NCBI GenBank assembly: GCA_902622845.1
Contig: CACNRI010000002.1
Span: forward strand, 1-64,000
Source: an uncultured SAR86 cluster bacterium
GTDB taxonomy: Bacteria > Pseudomonadota > Gammaproteobacteria > Magnimaribacterales > D2472
Direction: 5' to 3'
DNA: 64,000 nt
Below are positions 11,001-22,248 of the stretch, in pieces. The translations under genes and the position numbers were made by a program. The stretch's first letter is position 1; every line of letters begins with the position of its first letter. The notes under the pieces were generated by a model. It was given only the letters and a program-made list of their open reading frames with translations. It did not search any database and was not told the DNA's origin.

Positions 11001-11725
11001 TGTCACCTAAAGAAAATTTATTTATTTCTAGCATCAAAAAAGATGTTGGATCTCCACATCCTGTTGAGGAAATGAAAAATAGGCTTGTAAGTATATTGCA
11101 ATCATTTGGCTTTAGTTATGAAGAGGGTCCTGAAGTTGAAACCGAAGAGAACAATTTTGACATGCTCAATATTCATAAAAATCATCCTGCTAGACAAATG
11201 CATGATACTTTTTATGTTGAAAATAAATCTCTTGTTTTAAGAACGCACACTTCGCCAGTCCAAATAAGAAGTATGCTCAAGCTCAAACCACCAATTTCTA
11301 TAGTTTCTGCAGGAAAAGTATATAGAAAAGATGATGATGCAACTCATTTGCCCATGTTCCATCAAGTTGAAGCAATTTGTGTTGATGAAGATATAAGCTT
11401 TGCTAATTTGAAGTATCTTATATATGAAATCTGTTCAATATTATTTGGTTCTAATGTTGAAATAAGATTTAGACCATCATATTTTCCATTTACTGAGCCA
11501 TCTGCAGAAGTGGATATAAAATCAGAAAATGGTAAATGGCTTGAAATTCTCGGATGCGGGGTAGTTAATCCAATTGTACTTGATAATTGTAATATTAATT
11601 CTACTAAGTTCTCTGGTCTAGCTCTCGGAATGGGCGTAGAGAGAATAGCAATGCTTTTAAATAATGTTAATGACATAAGAGATTTTTACAAATCGAATCT
11701 TGATTTTCTTGGTCAGAATAAATGA
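11000..11725 (+). CDS. pheS: Phenylalanyl-tRNA synthetase alpha subunit lacking its N-terminal domain
   Basis: 241 residues against about 327 in E. coli. The complete class II catalytic core is present: GPEVETEENNFDMLNIHKNH with HPARQMHDTFYV (motif 1 region), LRTHTSPVQIR, GKVYRKDDDATHLPMFHQVE (motif 2), IRFRPSYFPFTEPSAEVD, WLEILGCGVV and GLALGMGVERIAML (motif 3). The roughly 85-residue N-terminal coiled coil, which contacts tRNA-Phe in known structures, is absent. It cannot be recovered by moving the start, because ATG 11000 overlaps the rplT stop and upstream sequence is rplT coding. PheS normally pairs with PheT as an alpha2-beta2 enzyme. The stop overlaps pheT by four bases (ATGA). Confidence 0.96.
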   Translation: MSPKENLFISSIKKDVGSPHPVEEMKNRLVSILQSFGFSYEEGPEVETEENNFDMLNIHKNHPARQMHDTFYVENKSLVLRTHTSPVQIRSMLKLKPPISIVSAGKVYRKDDDATHLPMFHQVEAICVDEDISFANLKYLIYEICSILFGSNVEIRFRPSYFPFTEPSAEVDIKSENGKWLEILGCGVVNPIVLDNCNINSTKFSGLALGMGVERIAMLLNNVNDIRDFYKSNLDFLGQNK

Positions 11726-13644
11726 AGTTTCATTACCAGCACCTCATAGAGCTTCTAAAAAAAACTCCCACTAAAGCTGAACTCTCTGAAATACTTTTTC
11801 AGCTAGGGCATGAAAATGAAATTGAAGGTGAAATTTTTAATCTCGAGCTTACTCCAAATAGAGGTGATTGTCTAAGCCTGACGGGTATTGCTAGAGATTT
11901 AAATTTCTTTTTTGAATATAAAGATAATTTAAAAATTTATGATGGTGCGATAGAAAAGTTTGACTTTGATTTTGTTAATCATGAGCCTGATGCTTGTCCA
12001 GATATTAACTTCTTGTATATAGAGATAGATAATAAGGTAAACTCTTACAAGGATTACCTTCAGTCATATTTTCAAGATCTTCCAAATAATAGAGTTAATT
12101 TTTTTACGGATATTTCAAATTATGTTTCCTATGAGCTTGGTCAACCAACACACTGTTATGATTTTTTATCTCTGCAGGGAACTTTAGAACTTAAAAAGAT
12201 TGATCAAAAAGATGATTTCACTACATTGCAAGATGAAAAGATTGTGATTGATGAAGGCAGCTTAGTTTTCTCTATTAATGATGAGGTTATTAATTTAGCT
12301 GGGATCATGGGAGGTAAAAATACGCGATGCAGTGATAAAACTACTAAGGTTCTATTAGAATGCGCTCACTTTAAACCTGAAGAAATTCTTGGAAAAAGTA
12401 CTCTTTATGGTTTAAATTCTGATGCATCTCACAAATATGAGAGATTTGTTGATCCTAATCTTCAAGAGTTCGCAATAAAGAGGTTTATTAAAATTGTTGA
12501 AGATCATGCTGATATTAAGGAAATTAAACTTTATAAAAATTCTAATTATAAGCATCAAGATAGAATGCTAGAGCTCAACTCTTCTAAGATAAATAATATT
12601 CTAGGAACAAATTTAGATGACAAAATGATCATAAAAATTCTCGATAACTTATTTTTTGAGACAATAGATAATCAAGTGAAAGTTCCGTCATTTAGAAATG
12701 ATATTCATACTACAAATGACTTGGCTGAGGAGATAGCCAGAATTGTAGGGTACAATAATATTGCCTCGCAGAGTATTAATCTTCCAAAAATTAAAAAAGA
12801 CTTTTCACTTTCGCAGTTCCTAAGAGATTTTCTTTTAAAAAACGGTTTTACCGAGGTTATTAATTTTCAGTTTTCAAATATAGATGAGTCTGAAACTATA
12901 AGTATTGATAATCCTCTTGATCAAAACAAAACACAGATGAGAACCTCGCTAAAGGATTCACTTCTTGAAAATCTACTTTTTAATGAGAGAAGGCAAAAAA
13001 GTTCAATAAAGCTATTTGAGATTTCAGACTTATACTCAATAGATCCAAGTGGAAACATAGATATCAAAAAAGTCATGGGCATAATTGCGTCTGGGCATGT
13101 GGCAAATAATTATGAAGACTTCTCAAAAAAAATTAATACACAATTTATGGATACAATTTTTAAAGATTTAAATTTTGATTCATCTCAATATTCATCCAAT
13201 ATTGATAGACAGTCAATAAATTCCAAAAGAAAAGAGGAGATCGTATATGTAGAAATTCCTCTTGAGAGATTTGAAGTTTATCGTAATGATGAATATGTTG
13301 AGAAATTAGATGAGGATATTCAATTTTTCAAATATAAAGAAATTTCCGGCTTTCCATCATCAACGAGAGATTTTTCATTTATGGTGAGCAATCTTGATAC
13401 GATCAATAAAATTTCTCAAAAGATTTTCGATTTTGATTCAAAGATATTAAAGGATGCATTTTTATTTGATTTTTATGAAAATGCTGCTAATCAGGAAGTT
13501 AAAGCAGCCTTTAGATTCATTTTTCAAGATTTTTCAAAGACTCTTACTGATAATGAAATCAATCAAGAATTAGAACCATTGTTAAGTGAAATCCTTAAAC
13601 TTGAAAATGTATCTATTCCTGGATATAAGCATGATATCCCTTAG
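11722..13644 (+). CDS. pheT: Phenylalanyl-tRNA synthetase beta subunit lacking the OB-fold domain
   Basis: 640 residues against about 795 in E. coli. B1 starts normally (FHYQHLIELL, LFQLGHENEIEG) but runs straight into NLELTPNRGDCLSLTGIARD. The roughly 110-residue B2 EMAP-II-like OB domain that normally splits B1 is missing. The B3/B4 editing module (VTNYV equivalent ISNYVSYELGQPTHCYDF, LAGIMGG, LLECAHFKPEEI), B5 (LAEEIARIVGYNNIAS), B6-B7 core and C-terminal FDX-ACB domain (FPSSTRDFSFMV...FIFQDFSKTLTD) remain. Together with the truncated PheS this gives a streamlined PheRS. No frameshift is visible. Confidence 0.96.
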   Translation: MKFHYQHLIELLKKTPTKAELSEILFQLGHENEIEGEIFNLELTPNRGDCLSLTGIARDLNFFFEYKDNLKIYDGAIEKFDFDFVNHEPDACPDINFLYIEIDNKVNSYKDYLQSYFQDLPNNRVNFFTDISNYVSYELGQPTHCYDFLSLQGTLELKKIDQKDDFTTLQDEKIVIDEGSLVFSINDEVINLAGIMGGKNTRCSDKTTKVLLECAHFKPEEILGKSTLYGLNSDASHKYERFVDPNLQEFAIKRFIKIVEDHADIKEIKLYKNSNYKHQDRMLELNSSKINNILGTNLDDKMIIKILDNLFFETIDNQVKVPSFRNDIHTTNDLAEEIARIVGYNNIASQSINLPKIKKDFSLSQFLRDFLLKNGFTEVINFQFSNIDESETISIDNPLDQNKTQMRTSLKDSLLENLLFNERRQKSSIKLFEISDLYSIDPSGNIDIKKVMGIIASGHVANNYEDFSKKINTQFMDTIFKDLNFDSSQYSSNIDRQSINSKRKEEIVYVEIPLERFEVYRNDEYVEKLDEDIQFFKYKEISGFPSSTRDFSFMVSNLDTINKISQKIFDFDSKILKDAFLFDFYENAANQEVKAAFRFIFQDFSKTLTDNEINQELEPLLSEILKLENVSIPGYKHDIP

Positions 13645-15577
13645 TAAATTCATTAAAATATTTTTTTTTATTTTAGTATTATTTTCGGAAGATTTACTTG
13701 TTGATGATTTTGTAAATAATATTTACAACAATCATGGTTCAGTTGGTCTAATTAATATGCCTTCTGCTAGATTTTATGACGAAAGCTCATTCGGAATTAC
13801 GGTTTACGATGGCACTCCTGATCAAAAGGTCACTCTAACATCTTCTCCATTTGATTGGCTAGAAGCATCTTTTTTCTATACAAATATTCAGGGGTTACCT
13901 TATCCTGGATATGAATATCAGGACTACAAAGATAAAGGTTTCAATGTAAAAATGAGACTTAAAGAGCAGGGAGTACTTCCGGCAATTGCAGTTGGCATCA
14001 ACGATTTAGCTGGAACTGGTTTTTATAGCGGAGAGTATGTTGTAAGTTCATATGAACTAAATAATATTGATTTCCACTTTGGTTTAGGCTGGGGTACTTT
14101 AAATGGTAAGAACGATTTTAAAAATCCCTTATCATTATTGGATGAAAGATTTAAAAATAGACCAACAGAATTTGAGGATCAAGGTGGTCAATTTCAGCCT
14201 TCAAGATATTATTCAGATGAAAATGTTTCTGCTTTCTTTGGATTTTCTTATATCCTCAATGATAGAACTCTATTTAAGTTTGAAAGAGATACTACCTCAA
14301 CAGACTCACAAATTGACTATCAGCTTGCTAAAAGCGACTTTAGTTATGGTTGGGAATACAGAGTAAACAAAAATTTAAGCATTGGATTATTTAATGAAAG
14401 AGATAATTTTTATTCGTTAAAATTTATTTATAAGCAAAATCCTAAACAAGAAATTCCAAGATATAAATATATACCTCCAAAAATTAAGGAAGATACATCT
14501 TCTTATGAAAAATTTATAGCTAATTTAAATAATAATGGCATAGGCGTAAATAAAATCATAAAAAAAGGAAAAATTATTGGCGTCGATATCACTCAATTTA
14601 TACATCCGAATGTTAATGTAATTAATGAAATAATCGATAATGCTAAATCTGACAGCAGTCTAACTGAAGAAGTTTTAGTAAATTATAAAATTGTGGATCT
14701 GAGTGTCATAGAAAATTATGATAATTCCTTTGAGGAGGAAAGCGAGCAAATTTATATCAGGAATAAGCAAAAAGGTTTCAATAGCAGTACTAAATTTAAC
14801 TTTAGACCCTTTTTGGCTTCAAGGGAAGGATTTTTCAAAGGTGCATTACTTCTAGAGAATGACTCTGAATATTTATTTGCTGATAATTTGATCTTTTCTT
14901 CAAACCTGAAGTATTCATTATGGAATAATTTTGATGACCTTGTAATACCGCCCAGAAATACCTACCCAGCTCAAGTAAGATCTGACGTTAAAGACTACTT
15001 AAGAGGCTTTAATGATGGAATTGTGATAGGTCGAGCCCAAATTGATTTTTATCAAAGTTTGAAAAACAATCATCATATTATGGTTTCAGCAGGATTGTTT
15101 GAGGAAATGTTTAGTGGAGCGGGTTTTGAATATTTATATTTTCCTAGTGAAAAAAATTATGCAGTTGGTTTCGAGGTCTTTGAAGTAATTAAAAGAGACT
15201 ACAAGCTTCAGTTTGGAACGTTGGATTACAGAAACACTACTGGACATATTAATTTCTACCATAGAAATTACAAATATATTCCTTTCGATACAAAGATTTC
15301 ATATGGCGAATATCTAGCTGGTGATGTTGGTGCAACAATTCAATTTTCTAGGAGTTTCAGAAATGGAGTAGAGTTCGGGGTATTTGCTTCGTTTACTAAT
15401 GTATCGTCTGAGCAGTTTGGTGAAGGCTCCTTTGATAAAGGAATATTTTTTAATTTGCCAGTTTTTTCAAATTTCATTAATTATTCATGGCGTCCGTTAA
15501 CAAAAGATCCTGGGGCAAAACTTACACGAAAGAACAATTTGTACGATCTTTTAGTAAAATTTAGGCCAATTAACTAA
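13631..15577 (+). CDS. YjbH-like outer-membrane exopolysaccharide protein
   Basis: 648 residues from ATG 13631, which overlaps the pheT stop by 14 bases and gives a proper signal peptide (MISLSKFIKIFFFILVLFS). GSVGLINMPSARFYDESSFG, FDWLEASFFYTN, YKDKGFNVKMRLKEQG and VGINDLAGTGFYSGEYVVSS match the YjbH (DUF940) family, beta-rich lipoprotein-like or barrel proteins linked to exopolysaccharide secretion in E. coli (yjbEFGH). The C-terminal half is rich in alternating aromatic strands as in outer-membrane barrels. No yjbE, yjbF or yjbG partner is present here. It lies between pheT and ihfA, which are usually adjacent. Confidence 0.8.
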   Translation: MISLSKFIKIFFFILVLFSEDLLVDDFVNNIYNNHGSVGLINMPSARFYDESSFGITVYDGTPDQKVTLTSSPFDWLEASFFYTNIQGLPYPGYEYQDYKDKGFNVKMRLKEQGVLPAIAVGINDLAGTGFYSGEYVVSSYELNNIDFHFGLGWGTLNGKNDFKNPLSLLDERFKNRPTEFEDQGGQFQPSRYYSDENVSAFFGFSYILNDRTLFKFERDTTSTDSQIDYQLAKSDFSYGWEYRVNKNLSIGLFNERDNFYSLKFIYKQNPKQEIPRYKYIPPKIKEDTSSYEKFIANLNNNGIGVNKIIKKGKIIGVDITQFIHPNVNVINEIIDNAKSDSSLTEEVLVNYKIVDLSVIENYDNSFEEESEQIYIRNKQKGFNSSTKFNFRPFLASREGFFKGALLLENDSEYLFADNLIFSSNLKYSLWNNFDDLVIPPRNTYPAQVRSDVKDYLRGFNDGIVIGRAQIDFYQSLKNNHHIMVSAGLFEEMFSGAGFEYLYFPSEKNYAVGFEVFEVIKRDYKLQFGTLDYRNTTGHINFYHRNYKYIPFDTKISYGEYLAGDVGATIQFSRSFRNGVEFGVFASFTNVSSEQFGEGSFDKGIFFNLPVFSNFINYSWRPLTKDPGAKLTRKNNLYDLLVKFRPIN

Positions 15578-15703
15578 GGGCAACCAAAATTTGGATGTCA
15601 AAAAGAAATTATGTCTAAAAAAAATACTTTATTTTGTAAAAAAGTAATCAAAATTATTTAAATATGAACAAAATTTATGCATAATTACTCTTTGAGGAGC
15701 TTA

Positions 15704-18484
15704 ATGTCAATGAAAAAAATATTATTATCACTATTAGTCCTTGTTTCATACTCATTCGTTAGTATAGAAACAATTGCCTTTACAGATGAAGATCTTGCAG
15801 AAATTAATGAAAACCTTGAAGGATTGTCAGTTGATGAGCTTCTCGAAAGAAGAGATTTTTTAATTGCCCAGCTTGAGATAGACGAAGAAGACTGTGCTGG
15901 TGTTTTAGGTGGAACTGCAATCATTGATGAAGAAGGCAATTGTAATGAAGATCCAACTGAAGAGAAAGAAGATTCTAATGAAGAAAGTGTTGACTCCGGT
16001 ACTCCTGCAAAACCATCAATTCTTGCTGAAATATCAATTATTGAGGCTATGTTAGGTGTTTTAGGTATTGCTGTAATAGATAATGCTCTGTCAGATGATG
16101 ATAAAGATACTTTGGCACCTGTTATTACAATACTTGGTGATAACCCTGCAACAGTTGAGCTCGGTACTGCATATACTGATGCTGGTGCAACAGCAACTGA
16201 TAACTCTGGATCAGCAGTTGTCACCTCATCCGGAACAGTAGATACTAACACTGTTGGTTCATACACAATCACTTATACTGCAACTGATGCATCTGGTAAT
16301 AGTTCTTCTGCAACAAGAACAGTTAATGTTGTCGATACTACAGCTCCTGTCATCACTGTTACCGGAGATAACCCTGCAACAGTTGAACTCGGGACTGCAT
16401 ATACTGATGCTGGTGCAACAGCCACTGATGCTTCAGGCACAGTTTCTGTGACTTCATCCGGCACAGTTGACACTAATACGCTAGGATCATATACCATTAC
16501 TTATACATCAACAGATGCTTCGGGAAATACTGGAACAGCAGCTAGAACAGTCAATGTTGTTGATACCACTCCTCCTGTTATAACAATACTGGGTGATAAT
16601 CCTGCTACGCTAGAGCTTGGCGATACTTATGTTGATGGGAATGCTACTGCAACAGATCTTTCTGGCGCAATTGAAGTTTCTGCTTCTGACGACATCGATC
16701 CTGATGCTGTCGGAACATACACAGTCACCTATACTGCTACCGATTCTTCTGGAAACACAGCTGTAGCAACAAGAACAGTAAATGTTGTTGATACTACGGC
16801 ACCTGTTTTCACTTCTGTTGGCACTTACTCAGTTGATGAGAATACATTAACAATAGGTGTAGCATCAGCAACTGACTTAGCTGGTGTAACAATTACCGCT
16901 GCGGATGGTGGAAGTAGGTTTACTTTTGCTGAATCAGAAAACTCATCGTCCTCTCCCGCAACTCTTCTCATAAGACAAGATGCAGCTAATCAAGGCTATA
17001 ACGATTTCGAAACATATCAATCATGGGGTTGCCCAACAGGTTATGAGGCAAATGGTTACAGAATTAGAGCTACAGACCCTAGTGGTAACTCAACTGACCA
17101 GAATATTTGTATTCAAATCAATAACATTAATGATGTTGAACCAGTTGTAACATCACCTGGTGGATTTACAGCTGATGAAAATCAGCTTGAGATTGGAACA
17201 GTTACTGCTATTGATGGAGATGGCGGGCTTACTGATGTTACTTTCTCGCTTGATGATAATGATGCTGGTAATGACGCATCTAATGTAACAATAGATGAAA
17301 ATACTGGAGTACTTAGTTTTATAACTGCGCCAGATTATGAAAGTGTCACATCTTATACTTTCACAGTTGTGGCATTTGATGGTCTCTTTTATGCAAGACC
17401 AGTAACAACTATTACTATTAATGACGTAAATGAAGCGCCATCAATAACTTCTGATGCAGCATTCACTGCTCCTGAAAACCAGACAGCTATTGGAACTGTT
17501 ACTGCTACCGATCCAGAGAGCGATACATTGACATTCTCTGTATCTGGATCTGATTTAGCCATTGATGCATCCACCGGTGTACTTACTTTTGTAAGTGCTC
17601 CTGATTTTGAAACAACAACTTCTGTAACAGCAACAGTTACTGTTAGTGATGGAACATTAACTGATACCCAAGAAGTAACAGTTACAGTTACAGATGTTAA
17701 TGAAGCGCCTACTATTACCTCGGCATCTTCATTTAGCGTTGATGAAAATGAAACTTCAGTAGGTCAACTTACTGCAACAGATCCTGACGGTGATGAAGTA
17801 TCATTTAGTCTAGCAGGAACCGATGCGGCTAGCTTTACTTTAAATAGCCCATTAGCTTTTGCTACTGCTCCTGATTTTGAGTCAGGTAAAACTAGTTATT
17901 CGCTTACCATTGTTGCAAGTGACGGAACTAACTCAGTAGAGCAAGAGGTTACAATTTCTGTTAATAACTTAAACGATAATGCTCCAGTTGTTTCATCATC
18001 TGATTCAATAACAGTGCCGGAAGGTGCAACATCCTTAACCACTCTTACTGCAACTGATGCAGATGGTGACGATGTAACTTTTTCTCTCGGAGGAACTGAT
18101 GCGTCAAGCTTTACATTGGATTCTTCTGGAGCCTTCTCATTCTCTTCTGCAGCAGACTTTGAAAACCCAACCGATGCAGATGCTAATAATGTTTATGAGG
18201 TAACAATTACGGCCAGTGATGGTGTAAACTCGGGCTCACAAGATTTAACTATTACTGTTACTAATGATGAATCTGATGATGACGACTCAGGTACAGGCAC
18301 AAGCACAGGCACAAGCACAGGCACAAGTACTGGAACAAGTACAGGTACTGGAACAGGCACTGGCACTGGAACTGGAACAGGTACTGGAACAAGTACAGGT
18401 ACTGGAACAGGAACAGGAACAGGTACAGGTACTGGAACCGGAACCGGAACTGGAACTGGAACAGGTACAGGTACAAGCACTTAA
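15704..18484 (+). CDS. Secreted Ig-like/cadherin-repeat surface protein with Thr-Gly tail
   Basis: 926 residues from ATG 15704, chosen because GAGGAG lies just upstream and MSMKKILLSLLVLVSYSFVS is a good signal peptide. An acidic region with a Cys pair and a hydrophobic helix (ISIIEAMLGVLGIAVID) is followed by three DUF5011/HYR-type Ig-like repeats of about 75 residues, each opening APVIT.LGDNPAT and closing ATRTVNVVDTT. Five cadherin-like repeats follow with DxNE and ATDxDGD calcium-binding motifs. The last 64 residues are almost pure Thr-Gly with some Ser. No membrane anchor or sorting domain follows. Probably a calcium-stiffened adhesin or surface stalk; export route and partner are unknown. 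Confidence 0.85.
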   Translation: MSMKKILLSLLVLVSYSFVSIETIAFTDEDLAEINENLEGLSVDELLERRDFLIAQLEIDEEDCAGVLGGTAIIDEEGNCNEDPTEEKEDSNEESVDSGTPAKPSILAEISIIEAMLGVLGIAVIDNALSDDDKDTLAPVITILGDNPATVELGTAYTDAGATATDNSGSAVVTSSGTVDTNTVGSYTITYTATDASGNSSSATRTVNVVDTTAPVITVTGDNPATVELGTAYTDAGATATDASGTVSVTSSGTVDTNTLGSYTITYTSTDASGNTGTAARTVNVVDTTPPVITILGDNPATLELGDTYVDGNATATDLSGAIEVSASDDIDPDAVGTYTVTYTATDSSGNTAVATRTVNVVDTTAPVFTSVGTYSVDENTLTIGVASATDLAGVTITAADGGSRFTFAESENSSSSPATLLIRQDAANQGYNDFETYQSWGCPTGYEANGYRIRATDPSGNSTDQNICIQINNINDVEPVVTSPGGFTADENQLEIGTVTAIDGDGGLTDVTFSLDDNDAGNDASNVTIDENTGVLSFITAPDYESVTSYTFTVVAFDGLFYARPVTTITINDVNEAPSITSDAAFTAPENQTAIGTVTATDPESDTLTFSVSGSDLAIDASTGVLTFVSAPDFETTTSVTATVTVSDGTLTDTQEVTVTVTDVNEAPTITSASSFSVDENETSVGQLTATDPDGDEVSFSLAGTDAASFTLNSPLAFATAPDFESGKTSYSLTIVASDGTNSVEQEVTISVNNLNDNAPVVSSSDSITVPEGATSLTTLTATDADGDDVTFSLGGTDASSFTLDSSGAFSFSSAADFENPTDADANNVYEVTITASDGVNSGSQDLTITVTNDESDDDDSGTGTSTGTSTGTSTGTSTGTGTGTGTGTGTGTGTSTGTGTGTGTGTGTGTGTGTGTGTGTGTST
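18289..18481 (+). repeat. Hexanucleotide-period repeat encoding a Thr-Gly/Thr-Ser tail
   Basis: About 193 bases built from ACN GGN and ACN AGY codon pairs (period 6), encoding about 64 residues of TG with interspersed TS, ending one codon before the stop. Threonine and glycine codons vary (ACA/ACT/ACC, GGA/GGT/GGC), so the repeat is imperfect at DNA level and may be old. Loss or gain of six-base units would keep the frame and only change tail length. All six frames stay open across it, so long opposite-strand Val-Pro frames here are artefacts. Confidence 0.9.
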
Positions 18485-18760
18485 TTGAGTTCTGTTACTA
18501 AGAAGGACTTAGCAAAAGGAATATCAAAAAAATTAGGGCTATCTCAAAAAGATAGCCTTTTTTTTGTATCTGAGTTCTTTGGTTTTATATCTAAGCATTA
18601 TGATGAGAGCATAAATATCCAGAGATTTGGGACTTTTTTGGAAAGAAAAACTCCAAAAAGAGTTGGAAGGAATCCCAAAACAAAAGAAGAATTTATTATT
18701 AAAGAGAGACAAAGAATATCTTTTATGCCTTCATCAGATTTTAAGAAGAGCATTAATTAA
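18485..18760 (+). CDS. ihfA: Integration host factor alpha / HU-family DNA-binding protein
   Basis: 91 residues. VTKKDLAKGISKKLGLSQKD opens the helical body and RFGTFLERKTPKRVGRNPKT with the Asn-Pro intercalating tip forms the DNA-bending arm. It should form a heterodimer with IhfB and bend DNA at specific sites. Position downstream of pheT supports IHF alpha over HU, although two surface-protein genes now intervene. The start is TTG 18485, immediately after the TAA of the repeat protein, with only a weak AGGT upstream, so translation probably depends on coupling. A perfect terminator-like hairpin lies in codons 18-27. Confidence 0.9.
   Translation: MSSVTKKDLAKGISKKLGLSQKDSLFFVSEFFGFISKHYDESINIQRFGTFLERKTPKRVGRNPKTKEEFIIKERQRISFMPSSDFKKSIN
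18537..18565 (+). terminator. Intrinsic-terminator hairpin inside ihfA, likely bidirectional
   Basis: GGCTATCT (18537-18544), loop CAAAA, AGATAGCC (18550-18557), then eight T (18558-18565): a perfect 8-base stem and U-tract, all within ihfA coding sequence. On the minus strand the same stem is followed, after four bases, by seven T (from 18530 downwards), so it could also stop the tRNA-Pro transcript that runs antisense into ihfA. On the plus strand a translating ribosome would melt it, so it may act as a translation-sensitive attenuator. Confidence 0.65.
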
Positions 18761-18762
18761 TT

Positions 18763-18839
18763 TGGTCGGGATGGCCGGATTTGAACCGACGACCACCACA
18801 CCCCCAGTGTGGTGCGCTACCAGGCTGCGCTACATCCCG
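18763..18839 (-). tRNA. tRNA-Pro (anticodon GGG)
   Basis: 77 bases with encoded CCA. Acceptor stem CGGGATG pairs perfectly with CATCCCG, including the C1-G72 pair typical of bacterial tRNA-Pro. The D-arm reads GTAGCGCAGCCTGGTAGCGC, anticodon stem CCACA/TGTGG closes the loop CTGGGGG with anticodon GGG, and the T-arm carries GGTTCGAATCC. The 3' end lies two bases from the ihfA stop on the opposite strand. Confidence 0.97.
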
Positions 18840-18908: not shown

Positions 18909-20402
18909 ATGAGTCTAGTGCAATGCAATGCTGGTCAATTTGAGGGCATTTTTCAAGATGACTGTCATCAATTTTTTGGTATCCCATATGCGAAATATGA
19001 ACAAAGATGGTGTGAATCTAATCTTATTGAACAAGAGATAAATCTCAAAACCATGCAAAAAGGTGATTCAGCTCCTCAAACAAGATCTGATGATCATAGT
19101 CAATCAGGAACAAGTTTTTTTCAAGATAATTCATTATCAAAACAATCTGAAGATTGTTTAACTCTAAATATTTGTTCAAATGATATTAATGCTGAAAATC
19201 CAGTAATGATTTGGATACATGGAGGCGCTTTAGTAACTGGTGGTTCTAGCAGCATTATGTATGACTTAAAGCATTTGGCCAAAAGAGGAGTGGTTGCGGT
19301 ATCTATAAATTATAGATTAGGACCGTTTGGATTTTTAAAACTTGATGAGGTTACGGATGGTGAGATCAAATCAACAGGCAATGAAGGACTTATAGATCAG
19401 AGAAATGCAATTAAGTGGGTAAAAGAAAATATTTCCTCCTTTGGAGGCGATCCAAATAATATCACTATTTTTGGTGAGTCAGCAGGTTCATGGAGCTGTA
19501 ATTTACAAATTGCTGCAGGCAATGATGGCTTGTTTAAAAAAGCAATCTGTCAAAGCGGTGGTCTTGATGCGATTGCCTCTGTAGAAAAAGCAAATCTATG
19601 GGCTGAACTCTTTATTGAACAGTTTGAAGAAGATGGACACAAAGTTTCTGATTTAAGATCATGTGAATGGGAGTTGATAATTGATACAGCTAAGAAGTTA
19701 AAACACTCAGCATTGAGCGATGGAAAGAGATGGATCTTTCCTGAAGTAGGCTTTCTTCCAGTTTTAGATAATAGATTTATTAAGGATGATTACTTAGAGA
19801 CATATTCATCTTCAAGTATTCATTTAATTGCTGGGACAACTCTTGATGAATATAAGCTATGGAGCACTTTCCATCCAAGAATAGGTAAAAATGATGAAGG
19901 ATATATCACAAGAAGGTTATCAAAAATGTTTGAATCTAGTAAGTTGCCTGAACTAATTTCTGCTTATAGCGAATATCTTAAAATTAGTGAGCTAGGAGAT
20001 ATTTATTCAGCGATTCTCACGGATATTTGTTTTGGTATTCCAACTCACAATACTCTTCAGAAAAAAGAAGGAAATTCTTATGGATATTTATTTTCAACAC
20101 AAAGCGAAATATTAAGAGGAAAATTAGGATGTTTTCATGCCTCAGAACTTCCATATGTATTTGGTGTTCATTCAAAAAAACCTTATTCAAGTTGGGGCCC
20201 AAAAGAATCAAAAGAAATTTCTGATAACTTTCAAATACCATGGACAAACTTTTCTAAAACAGATGATCCAAGTTTTGGAGATTTCGCATGGAGCAATTAT
20301 AATGATTCGTTCGAATTAGCACTTATTGGTAATAAAGTAAGGGCTTTAAGAAACCCTTTCTTAGAACGATATGAACTTATTGAGAAATATAAAATCTTTT
20401 AA
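18909..20402 (+). CDS. Type-B carboxylesterase, cytoplasmic
   Basis: 497 residues, no signal peptide. Carboxylesterase family (PF00135): EDCLTLNIC, MIWIHGGALVTGGSS (oxyanion hole), YRLGPFGFL, and the nucleophile elbow FGESAGS with Ser191. An acidic residue in GTTLDEYKLW and a His in CFHASELPYVFG would complete the triad. Such enzymes cleave carboxylic esters; the substrate is unknown. It overlaps a second, secreted family member by 32 bases, suggesting a duplicated pair acting on related esters in different compartments. Confidence 0.9.
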   Translation: MSLVQCNAGQFEGIFQDDCHQFFGIPYAKYEQRWCESNLIEQEINLKTMQKGDSAPQTRSDDHSQSGTSFFQDNSLSKQSEDCLTLNICSNDINAENPVMIWIHGGALVTGGSSSIMYDLKHLAKRGVVAVSINYRLGPFGFLKLDEVTDGEIKSTGNEGLIDQRNAIKWVKENISSFGGDPNNITIFGESAGSWSCNLQIAAGNDGLFKKAICQSGGLDAIASVEKANLWAELFIEQFEEDGHKVSDLRSCEWELIIDTAKKLKHSALSDGKRWIFPEVGFLPVLDNRFIKDDYLETYSSSSIHLIAGTTLDEYKLWSTFHPRIGKNDEGYITRRLSKMFESSKLPELISAYSEYLKISELGDIYSAILTDICFGIPTHNTLQKKEGNSYGYLFSTQSEILRGKLGCFHASELPYVFGVHSKKPYSSWGPKESKEISDNFQIPWTNFSKTDDPSFGDFAWSNYNDSFELALIGNKVRALRNPFLERYELIEKYKIF

Positions 20403-22248
20403 ACTTCTTATAGTTATATTTTGTGGAACTGTTGTAGGTATCCCTGAAGAAATTACTAATCCGCAAACTTATGATTATTACCAAGATAAAGGTGATAGTT
20501 TTAACCATATTGGAGCTACAACCTACAAGGGAGATTTTATTCAAACTACATCTGGGAAGGTTCTTTCCCAGAGGACAGAAGGGATTTTGTATTGGGAGGA
20601 TATCCCATTTGCATTACCTCCTTTAGGAAACTTAAGATGGAAGGCGCCAGTAGATTTCGTTGCTGAAGATTTTCACATTAATCCAAAAGAAAATAATTTT
20701 TGTCATCAAGAAATTGGCGGACAAATTCAAGAAATAAATCATGCTGGCTCGGAGGACTGCCTATATCTTGATATTAGAGCGCCTCATGGAAGTAGAGATA
20801 ATTTGCCAGTAATGTTTTGGATACATGGAGGAGGAAATACTTCAGGGCATAAAGATTTTTACAATTTCTCAGAATTGGTAAAAAGGAAAGATGTTATCGT
20901 TGTTTCCCCAAATTATCGTTTAGGACCACTTGGCTTTTTTACTCACCCAGCAATTCAAGATTACCATTCAGGCATAGATAAGACCTCTAATTTTGGAATT
21001 TTAGATCTAGTGCTTGCACTAGAATGGGTTAAAGAGAATATAGCTTCTTTTGGAGGTGATCCTAACAACATTACTATTTTTGGTGAGTCTGCTGGCGGGC
21101 ATAATGTTTTATCGCTTTTAGTAGCTCAGCAGGCTGAAGGTTTATTTCATAAAGCAATTTCCCAATCAGGCTATACAAAATCCTCATCACTACAAAATGC
21201 CTACAAGTCCAAAAATTTTAACGAGGAGGGAATATCTGATAGTTGGACAGTACTAAATAAAATAATTGTGGATAATCAATTAGCAAGTGATCTAAATGAG
21301 GCAAATACATTTCAATCAAATACTAATAAAGATACTCTTAGAAAGATTCTTTATGAGACAAAAGCCCAAGATTTAGTTAATCTTTATGGCGATACTTTTG
21401 AAACTCCTTTGCTTACAAATGATGGCATTGTAATTCCTGAAATTGGTCTTAAGAAAGCTCTTCGTTCTGAGGAATATTTAAATAGAGTTCCAACAATTGC
21501 TGGATCGAATAAAGATGAAATAAAGCTCTGGCTTGGATTTTCAAGATATTTCATAGAAACAAAACAATCCTTTCTATCTAGAGGAATTGGTATACCAACA
21601 GTTGAAATTAAAGATGAAGAAAAATATCAATTTTATAATGAAATTAGATCAAAAGGATGGCAGTTAAGAGGGGTTCAAGAGCCGCTTGAAAATATGTTTA
21701 TTGCAGGAAACGAAGATCTATATGCCTACAGATATGATTGGGATAATTTAAGAGACTTTTTTGTTGGCGACTTCAGTAAGATTATTGGATCTGCTCATGC
21801 ATTAGAAATACCAATGATAAGTGGAGATTTTAGCCTTGCTGAAGAATTTGCTTGGATAATATATCCTCGATCACCGTCTAGACGTTTTGTCTCTAAGAAT
21901 ATGATGAATTTTTGGACTGAGTTTGCAAAAAATGGTGTACCTGGAATATCTTCAAACAATATTCTTTGGAATAAATATAATCCTAGAACAGAAAAGAATA
22001 TTTTTCATATCGATGAAAAGAAAAACCTTAGAATGGACAGTCTTAATTTAAGTATGCAGGAATTAGTGAATGAAATATTATCTTCGCAAATAATTGATAA
22101 GGAAGAAAAATGCATACTTTTATATGAAACTACAAACTATATTGGCGACAACTCTTTTGATGAATTTGTAAAAGATATAAATTTTAATTGCTCCAGAGAT
22201 GAGGCGCTAAGAATCTCAAAGAAAAATTCAGAAACAATTAATTTTTAA
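20371..22248 (+). CDS. Type-B carboxylesterase, exported
   Basis: 625 residues. Residues 1-24 form a hydrophobic signal sequence (SFKLLIVIFCGTVVG). The core has PFALPPLGNLRWKAP, EDCLYLDIRAP, MFWIHGGGNTSG, YRLGPLGFF and FGESAGGHN with nucleophile Ser240. SNKDEIKLW carries the probable acid and SAHALEIPMISG the His. It is longer than its neighbour through N- and C-terminal additions. The start lies inside the end of the previous gene. It probably hydrolyses esters in the periplasm or at the surface. The 3' end overlaps the convergent TerB-like gene by 11 bases. Confidence 0.88.
   Translation: MNLLRNIKSFKLLIVIFCGTVVGIPEEITNPQTYDYYQDKGDSFNHIGATTYKGDFIQTTSGKVLSQRTEGILYWEDIPFALPPLGNLRWKAPVDFVAEDFHINPKENNFCHQEIGGQIQEINHAGSEDCLYLDIRAPHGSRDNLPVMFWIHGGGNTSGHKDFYNFSELVKRKDVIVVSPNYRLGPLGFFTHPAIQDYHSGIDKTSNFGILDLVLALEWVKENIASFGGDPNNITIFGESAGGHNVLSLLVAQQAEGLFHKAISQSGYTKSSSLQNAYKSKNFNEEGISDSWTVLNKIIVDNQLASDLNEANTFQSNTNKDTLRKILYETKAQDLVNLYGDTFETPLLTNDGIVIPEIGLKKALRSEEYLNRVPTIAGSNKDEIKLWLGFSRYFIETKQSFLSRGIGIPTVEIKDEEKYQFYNEIRSKGWQLRGVQEPLENMFIAGNEDLYAYRYDWDNLRDFFVGDFSKIIGSAHALEIPMISGDFSLAEEFAWIIYPRSPSRRFVSKNMMNFWTEFAKNGVPGISSNNILWNKYNPRTEKNIFHIDEKKNLRMDSLNLSMQELVNEILSSQIIDKEEKCILLYETTNYIGDNSFDEFVKDINFNCSRDEALRISKKNSETINF

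Follow-up and report, generated by a model that had tools for sequence, protein, structure and literature searches.

The ihfA gene of an uncultured SAR86 bacterium probably carries, overlapping its start, an intrinsic (Rho-independent) terminator on the plus strand that has been kept by selection and would attenuate ihfA, leaving its expression to read-through. A sense-strand terminator of this kind, embedded in ihfA, was the core claim of a preliminary description of this DNA, and it is strongly supported by conservation and compensatory changes. The window, which is the whole stretch of 64,000 nucleotides that was analysed, belongs to a genome (G000) of 1.19 Mb in 9 contigs that is 91% complete.

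The ihfA locus and its hairpin

pheT is the classical upstream neighbour of ihfA. In the window, two genes are found between them, and the plus-strand order is pheT, a YjbH-family gene, a surface-type repeat gene and ihfA, with an opposing tRNA-Pro(GGG). Some other SAR86 loci have pheT followed by ihfA without inserted genes, as judged from a pheT-like end just 5′ of ihfA. The features are as follows.

11722–13644, plus strand: pheT
13586–15577, plus strand: YjbH-family gene (PF06082, E 2.5e-121), overlapping pheT
15677–18484, plus strand: upstream surface-type repeat gene with cadherin/Ig-like repeats and a Gly-Thr-rich tail
18485–18760, plus strand: ihfA (IHF alpha, 91 aa, TTG start; PF00216, E 2.9e-20)
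18526–18536, minus strand: weak T-tract CTAATTTTTTT following the same stem as below
18535–18559, plus strand: predicted terminator stem-loop of 10 pairs, with paired changes kept in the genus
18558–18565, plus strand: U-tract of eight T, in codons CTT TTT TTT
18763–18839, minus strand: tRNA-Pro(GGG), tail-to-tail with ihfA, 2 nt between them

The ORF at 18485–18760 is assigned to ihfA by its PF00216 domain, its best NCBIfam match and the pheT-ihfA neighbourhood. Its top NCBIfam match is ihfA at 64 bits, which is below the equivalog cut-off of 111, so the window ihfA is divergent. The TTG start directly adjoins the TAA stop codon of the repeat gene (18482–18484), as had been described, and the weak ribosome site proposed for ihfA is borne out by the lack of any Shine-Dalgarno-like sequence near the TTG. 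Within the genus, ihfA starts with TTG or GTG in 8/8 genes. A mis-annotated start, with the true one 3′ of the hairpin, was rejected: the IhfA proteins of all genera align right from the N-terminus, and there is no in-frame start soon past the hairpin.

Several other properties of the locus were observed. The window PheT is short (640 aa) and its N-terminal part is missing, the family match beginning at model position 155 of 798; in the nine members of the genus whose pheT is full-length, the frame spans 633–644 codons. Low-complexity DNA makes up the Gly-Thr repeat end of the surface gene (18290–18484), and in one relative, G005, the ihfA contig starts within or near this repeat end, which splits the locus. 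Tail-to-tail ihfA and tRNA-Pro genes with few nucleotides between them are found in most g1, g5, g8 and g9 loci examined, and the gap therefore offers no space for a terminator in these loci. Two neighbouring ORFs, putatively carboxylesterase-like, overlap by ~30 nt at 18909–22248.

The perfect 8-bp core of the hairpin pairs GGCTATCT (18537–18544) with AGATAGCC (18550–18557) around the loop CAAAA (18545–18549). The full stem at 18535–18559 has 10 pairs, including one G-U and one A-U, two of the 10 lying outside the core, and the hairpin RNA has a minimum free energy of −12.9 kcal/mol (z −3.5). Hairpin and T-tract together occupy ihfA codons 18–27, exactly where the preliminary description had placed a perfect 8-base stem, a 5-base loop and eight T. 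The structure has the form of an intrinsic terminator, with a stable short-loop hairpin and a U-rich tract directly 3′ of it, and compensatory substitutions maintain it among relatives. Comparison with Rfam returned nothing above the gathering score except tRNA.

Chance expectation and conservation

A simple terminator scan of the window genome covered C1, C2 and part of C3, which is 780 kb of 1187 kb, and yielded 49 terminator-like sites. The ihfA site ranks ninth by energy and T-run, its neighbours in the ranking are intergenic terminators, and its T-run score is the highest among the 25 top-ranked sites. It is the only strong gene-internal site in the 780 kb; no other comes close. A weaker terminator-like hairpin (L060; C2:145698–145717, plus strand) was observed 75 nt into a membrane-protein gene. 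Another apparent start-proximal terminator (C2:124839–124864, minus strand) was set aside, as its ORF has probably been extended too far and the site lies 5′ of the real start. A dispersed repeat or a common genome-wide terminator sequence was likewise rejected, the core pattern occurring once per genome.

We randomised the codons of each gene with the protein fixed and synonymous codons drawn by the usage of this genome (4000 trials per gene). The observed score was reached by 0, 2, 0, 2, 0 and 2 of 4000 randomised genes in six species, and by 104 of 4000 in a seventh, G008, in which the structure is weakened. The window genome was picked because of its hairpin, and the other six species are further tests. 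By this measure the combination of hairpin and T-tract is beyond chance.

The genus sample comprised 10 genomes, of which eight contain ihfA; the contigs of G001 and G003 end upstream of it, in a yjbH-like gene and in pheT, respectively, and these two genomes are thus missing data. Stem and T-tract are found at the same codons in 7/8 ihfA genes, as six strong predicted terminators and one weakened (G008, with a bulge in the stem and an interrupted T-run). In G005, stem and peptide are both lost. The hairpin is hence dispensable, given its absence from G005 and its weakening in G008.

This conservation is seen against deep divergence. PheT identity to that of the window is 43–51% within the genus, the median tip branch of the pheT tree is ~0.9 changes per site, and shared pheT codons are 51% identical versus 49% expected at saturation; synonymous sites in the genus are, by these pheT comparisons, saturated. 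Where amino acids are shared, stem codons are 86% identical; the figure is 54% for the remaining ihfA codons and 51% for pheT. The minor codons Leu-CTA and Ser-AGC are kept in 7/7 genes, and G000 and G007 have an identical 18-nt core at an IhfA identity of 49%.

The pairing changes point in the same direction. At alignment columns 16-38 and 17-37, G-U/G-C is replaced by G-C/A-U in G006 and G007 (GGG..CTT versus GAG..TCT), and this change in stem pairs is accompanied by an exchange of Gly18/Leu25 for Glu18/Ser25, so that two separate residues change together with the pairing. The pheT tree, in which some deeper forks are weakly supported, does not place G006 and G007 as sisters. A third pair changes from T-A to C-G in G006. 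In the pair counts, 90% of cells are paired and four pairs have changed on both sides; covariation is 0.257, versus 0.123 in shuffled and at most 0.154 in slid alignments. Eight sequences are few, and kinship could account for single columns; the codon evidence is independent of this. Taken from codons and pairs together, selection is acting on the stem beyond what the protein needs.

The preliminary description had called for stem conservation to be examined in relatives, and the stem proves to be kept, with paired changes, in 7/8 genes at saturated synonymous sites. It had also named relatives with the same peptide and no pairing or T-tract as evidence against the terminator. That comparison is not refuting: codons, and even amino acids, track the stem, and the stemless species G005 is also without the peptide.

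Outside the genus, none of 78 ihfA genes (22 + 56 loci, the 56 being from other genera and families) has a terminator-like structure inside ihfA on the plus strand. In a covariance-model search with the hairpin, the seven sites scored 52–63 bits; the rest of the 203 genomes of the order gave nothing above 37 bits and no weaker match at ihfA. Many species of the SAR86 genera g5, g8 and g9 have the repeat gene-ihfA order and a facing tRNA-Pro, with the hairpin absent. The peptide LGLSQKDSLFF shows no conservation in other SAR86 genera. The 78 genes without it suggest that the hairpin originated within the genus or just before its spread, and its distribution within the genus indicates that it was later lost or decayed in one subclade.

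Strand direction and other readings

The same stem could in principle act on the opposite strand. The preliminary description had reported seven T following it there and suggested that it could end the tRNA-Pro transcript. The seven T are present, but a CTAA spacer separates them from the 8-bp stem. A minus-strand or bidirectional terminator would end the tRNA-Pro transcript ~205 nt past the tRNA and keep down RNA antisense to both ihfA and the repeat gene. The tail-to-tail position of tRNA-Pro (2 nt off), the stability of the stem on the minus strand as well and the T-rich sequence after it in most species are all compatible with such a role. However, T-tract scores are 1.7–3.7 on the minus strand, where most species have a spacer separating the T from the stem, versus 3.4–5.2 on the plus strand (seven species). 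The U-tract that a bidirectional terminator would have on both strands is thus weak on the minus strand and variable among species. The G16-U38 pair also becomes a C-A mismatch on the minus strand in 4/7 species, and g5, g8 and g9 genomes have the same tail-to-tail tRNA-Pro without the hairpin. Because the T-run is stronger on the plus strand and G-U turns into C-A on the minus strand, the plus strand is better supported; because the minus-strand T-tract is weak, service to tRNA-Pro would be secondary at most. We regard termination on the minus strand as unlikely.

It is considerably less probable that the structure is the 3′-end of a small regulatory RNA that covers the last part of the repeat gene and the first part of ihfA. 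Such RNAs usually end in a hairpin followed by eight U, and ORF-internal small RNAs are known in E. coli (PMC7815308), which counts for this origin. Conservation is nevertheless limited to the terminator, with no upstream seed conserved, and Hfq was not found in the 91%-complete window genome, which weakens the case further.

A chance by-product of the protein sequence LGLSQKDSLFF and AT-rich codon use has a very small probability. In its favour, the peptide is conserved within the genus and Phe is mostly TTT. Against it, the stem is tracked both by the choice of codons and by the paired exchanges of amino acids, synonymous sites in the genus are saturated, other SAR86 genera lack conservation of the peptide, and chance origin was rejected on codon randomisation and pair counts. 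We give least credence to hairpin-stimulated transcriptional slippage at the T run yielding a frameshifted IhfA: a hairpin and then a T run is an arrangement reported for stem-loop-aided slippage, but the frame-shifted products in the seven species are dead ends of 26–42 aa with no shared sequence, frame zero is open in 7/7 and the T run is broken in G008.

Proposed attenuation of ihfA and comparison with known systems

For the favoured reading, a plus-strand terminator attenuating ihfA, the spacing of stop, start and stem is informative. The repeat-gene stop and the stem are 50 nt apart in five species, including that of the window, and 46 and 54 nt apart in two others, while the gap between this stop and the ihfA start is −1 to 7 nt. 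Reporter constructs in E. coli show that the ribosome masks terminators only a few bp from a stop codon and that efficiency is maximal beyond ~30 bp; terminators also perform well when placed in the first 100 bp of a coding region, the first ribosome being still behind (PMC4824070). As the ihfA site agrees with both positional rules, efficient termination is to be expected in the absence of a counteracting factor. We infer from spacing only that the genes are co-transcribed; termination in the cell, and its efficiency, are predicted.

Polymerase that has transcribed the repeat gene, and perhaps pheT-yjbH before it, would make the hairpin 46–54 nt past the repeat-gene stop, where a ribosome halted at that stop would be too distant to cover it. 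Release of polymerase at the U-tract would end the upstream message and attenuate ihfA. As every ihfA message must pass the terminator, ihfA would depend on read-through, and IhfA would be made from the read-through fraction, arising either by chance or with the aid of a ribosome. A ribosome restarting at the adjoining TTG/GTG could enter the left arm before the hairpin folds and so permit read-through. The terminator overlaps translated codons 18–27 and lies within ribosome reach, as in ribosome-controlled attenuators. No alternative antiterminator fold of the trp type is conserved upstream, and the ribosome is hence the only visible antiterminator.

A translation-sensitive attenuator is plausible from this position (46–54 nt past a stop, with the start adjoining or nearly so), and we put it forward tentatively. 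Terminators near start codons usually act despite translation (PMC4824070), which makes a fixed partial terminator setting a low IhfA level nearly as likely; it too is a possibility well short of even. It is conceivable, and again rather doubtful, that a translation-sensing attenuator within the IHF gene has its RNA signal dictate IhfA residues and ties IHF supply to the closeness of ribosome and polymerase as they leave a surface-protein gene. Against any attenuating terminator here, a brake in an important gene that all ihfA transcripts must pass seems costly. Messages cut in ihfA would leave ihfA ribosomes without a stop codon, and tmRNA could rescue them; both tmRNA and Rho are present in the window genome.

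Predicted gene-internal terminators are usually dismissed as noise. The ihfA case offers comparative evidence of selection for one, with paired amino acids following the stem. A streamlined genome that has no intergenic space may, as this example suggests, terminate a message within the gene that follows. The site is also a concrete candidate for transcription-translation coupling as a means of controlling a global chromosome protein, in a marine lineage that is uncultured, and it is a warning that RNA can drive peptide conservation.

ORF-internal terminators and attenuators are already known; what is unusual here is that the putative terminator occupies the codons of a global regulator and constrains its protein. 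The closest arrangement is that of E. coli tR2 constructs, in which a hairpin and U-tract likewise lie close to the start codon of an ORF and the upstream stop is more than 30 nt away; those are engineered, whereas the ihfA terminator is natural, compensatorily conserved and constrains the protein (PMC4824070). As in ribosome-controlled attenuators of the pyrBI-leader type, the terminator is in translated sequence and a close ribosome could block its folding. Unlike them, the ihfA site has no leader peptide and no antiterminator fold and lies inside a structural gene, and sensing is proposed only.

RNA mapping in E. coli and Borrelia has revealed premature termination and 3′-ends inside coding sequences, some of them with predicted intrinsic terminators, whereas the ihfA site is known by cross-species evidence of selection (PMC7815308; PMC10319736). 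Operon-internal terminators are reported to set gene ratios in clostridial ABC transporter operons, where partial termination lowers the distal gene; in SAR86 the distal gene carries the site in its own codons (PMC9045158). In enterobacteria, ihfA has a promoter of its own inside pheT and regulates its own expression, and the pheST-ihfA operon is subject to attenuation (PMC8942017). The pheT-ihfA neighbourhood is the same, but attenuation there is phenylalanine-responsive and acts on the whole operon, whereas in SAR86 the putative terminator is located in ihfA itself, downstream of the two genes inserted there.
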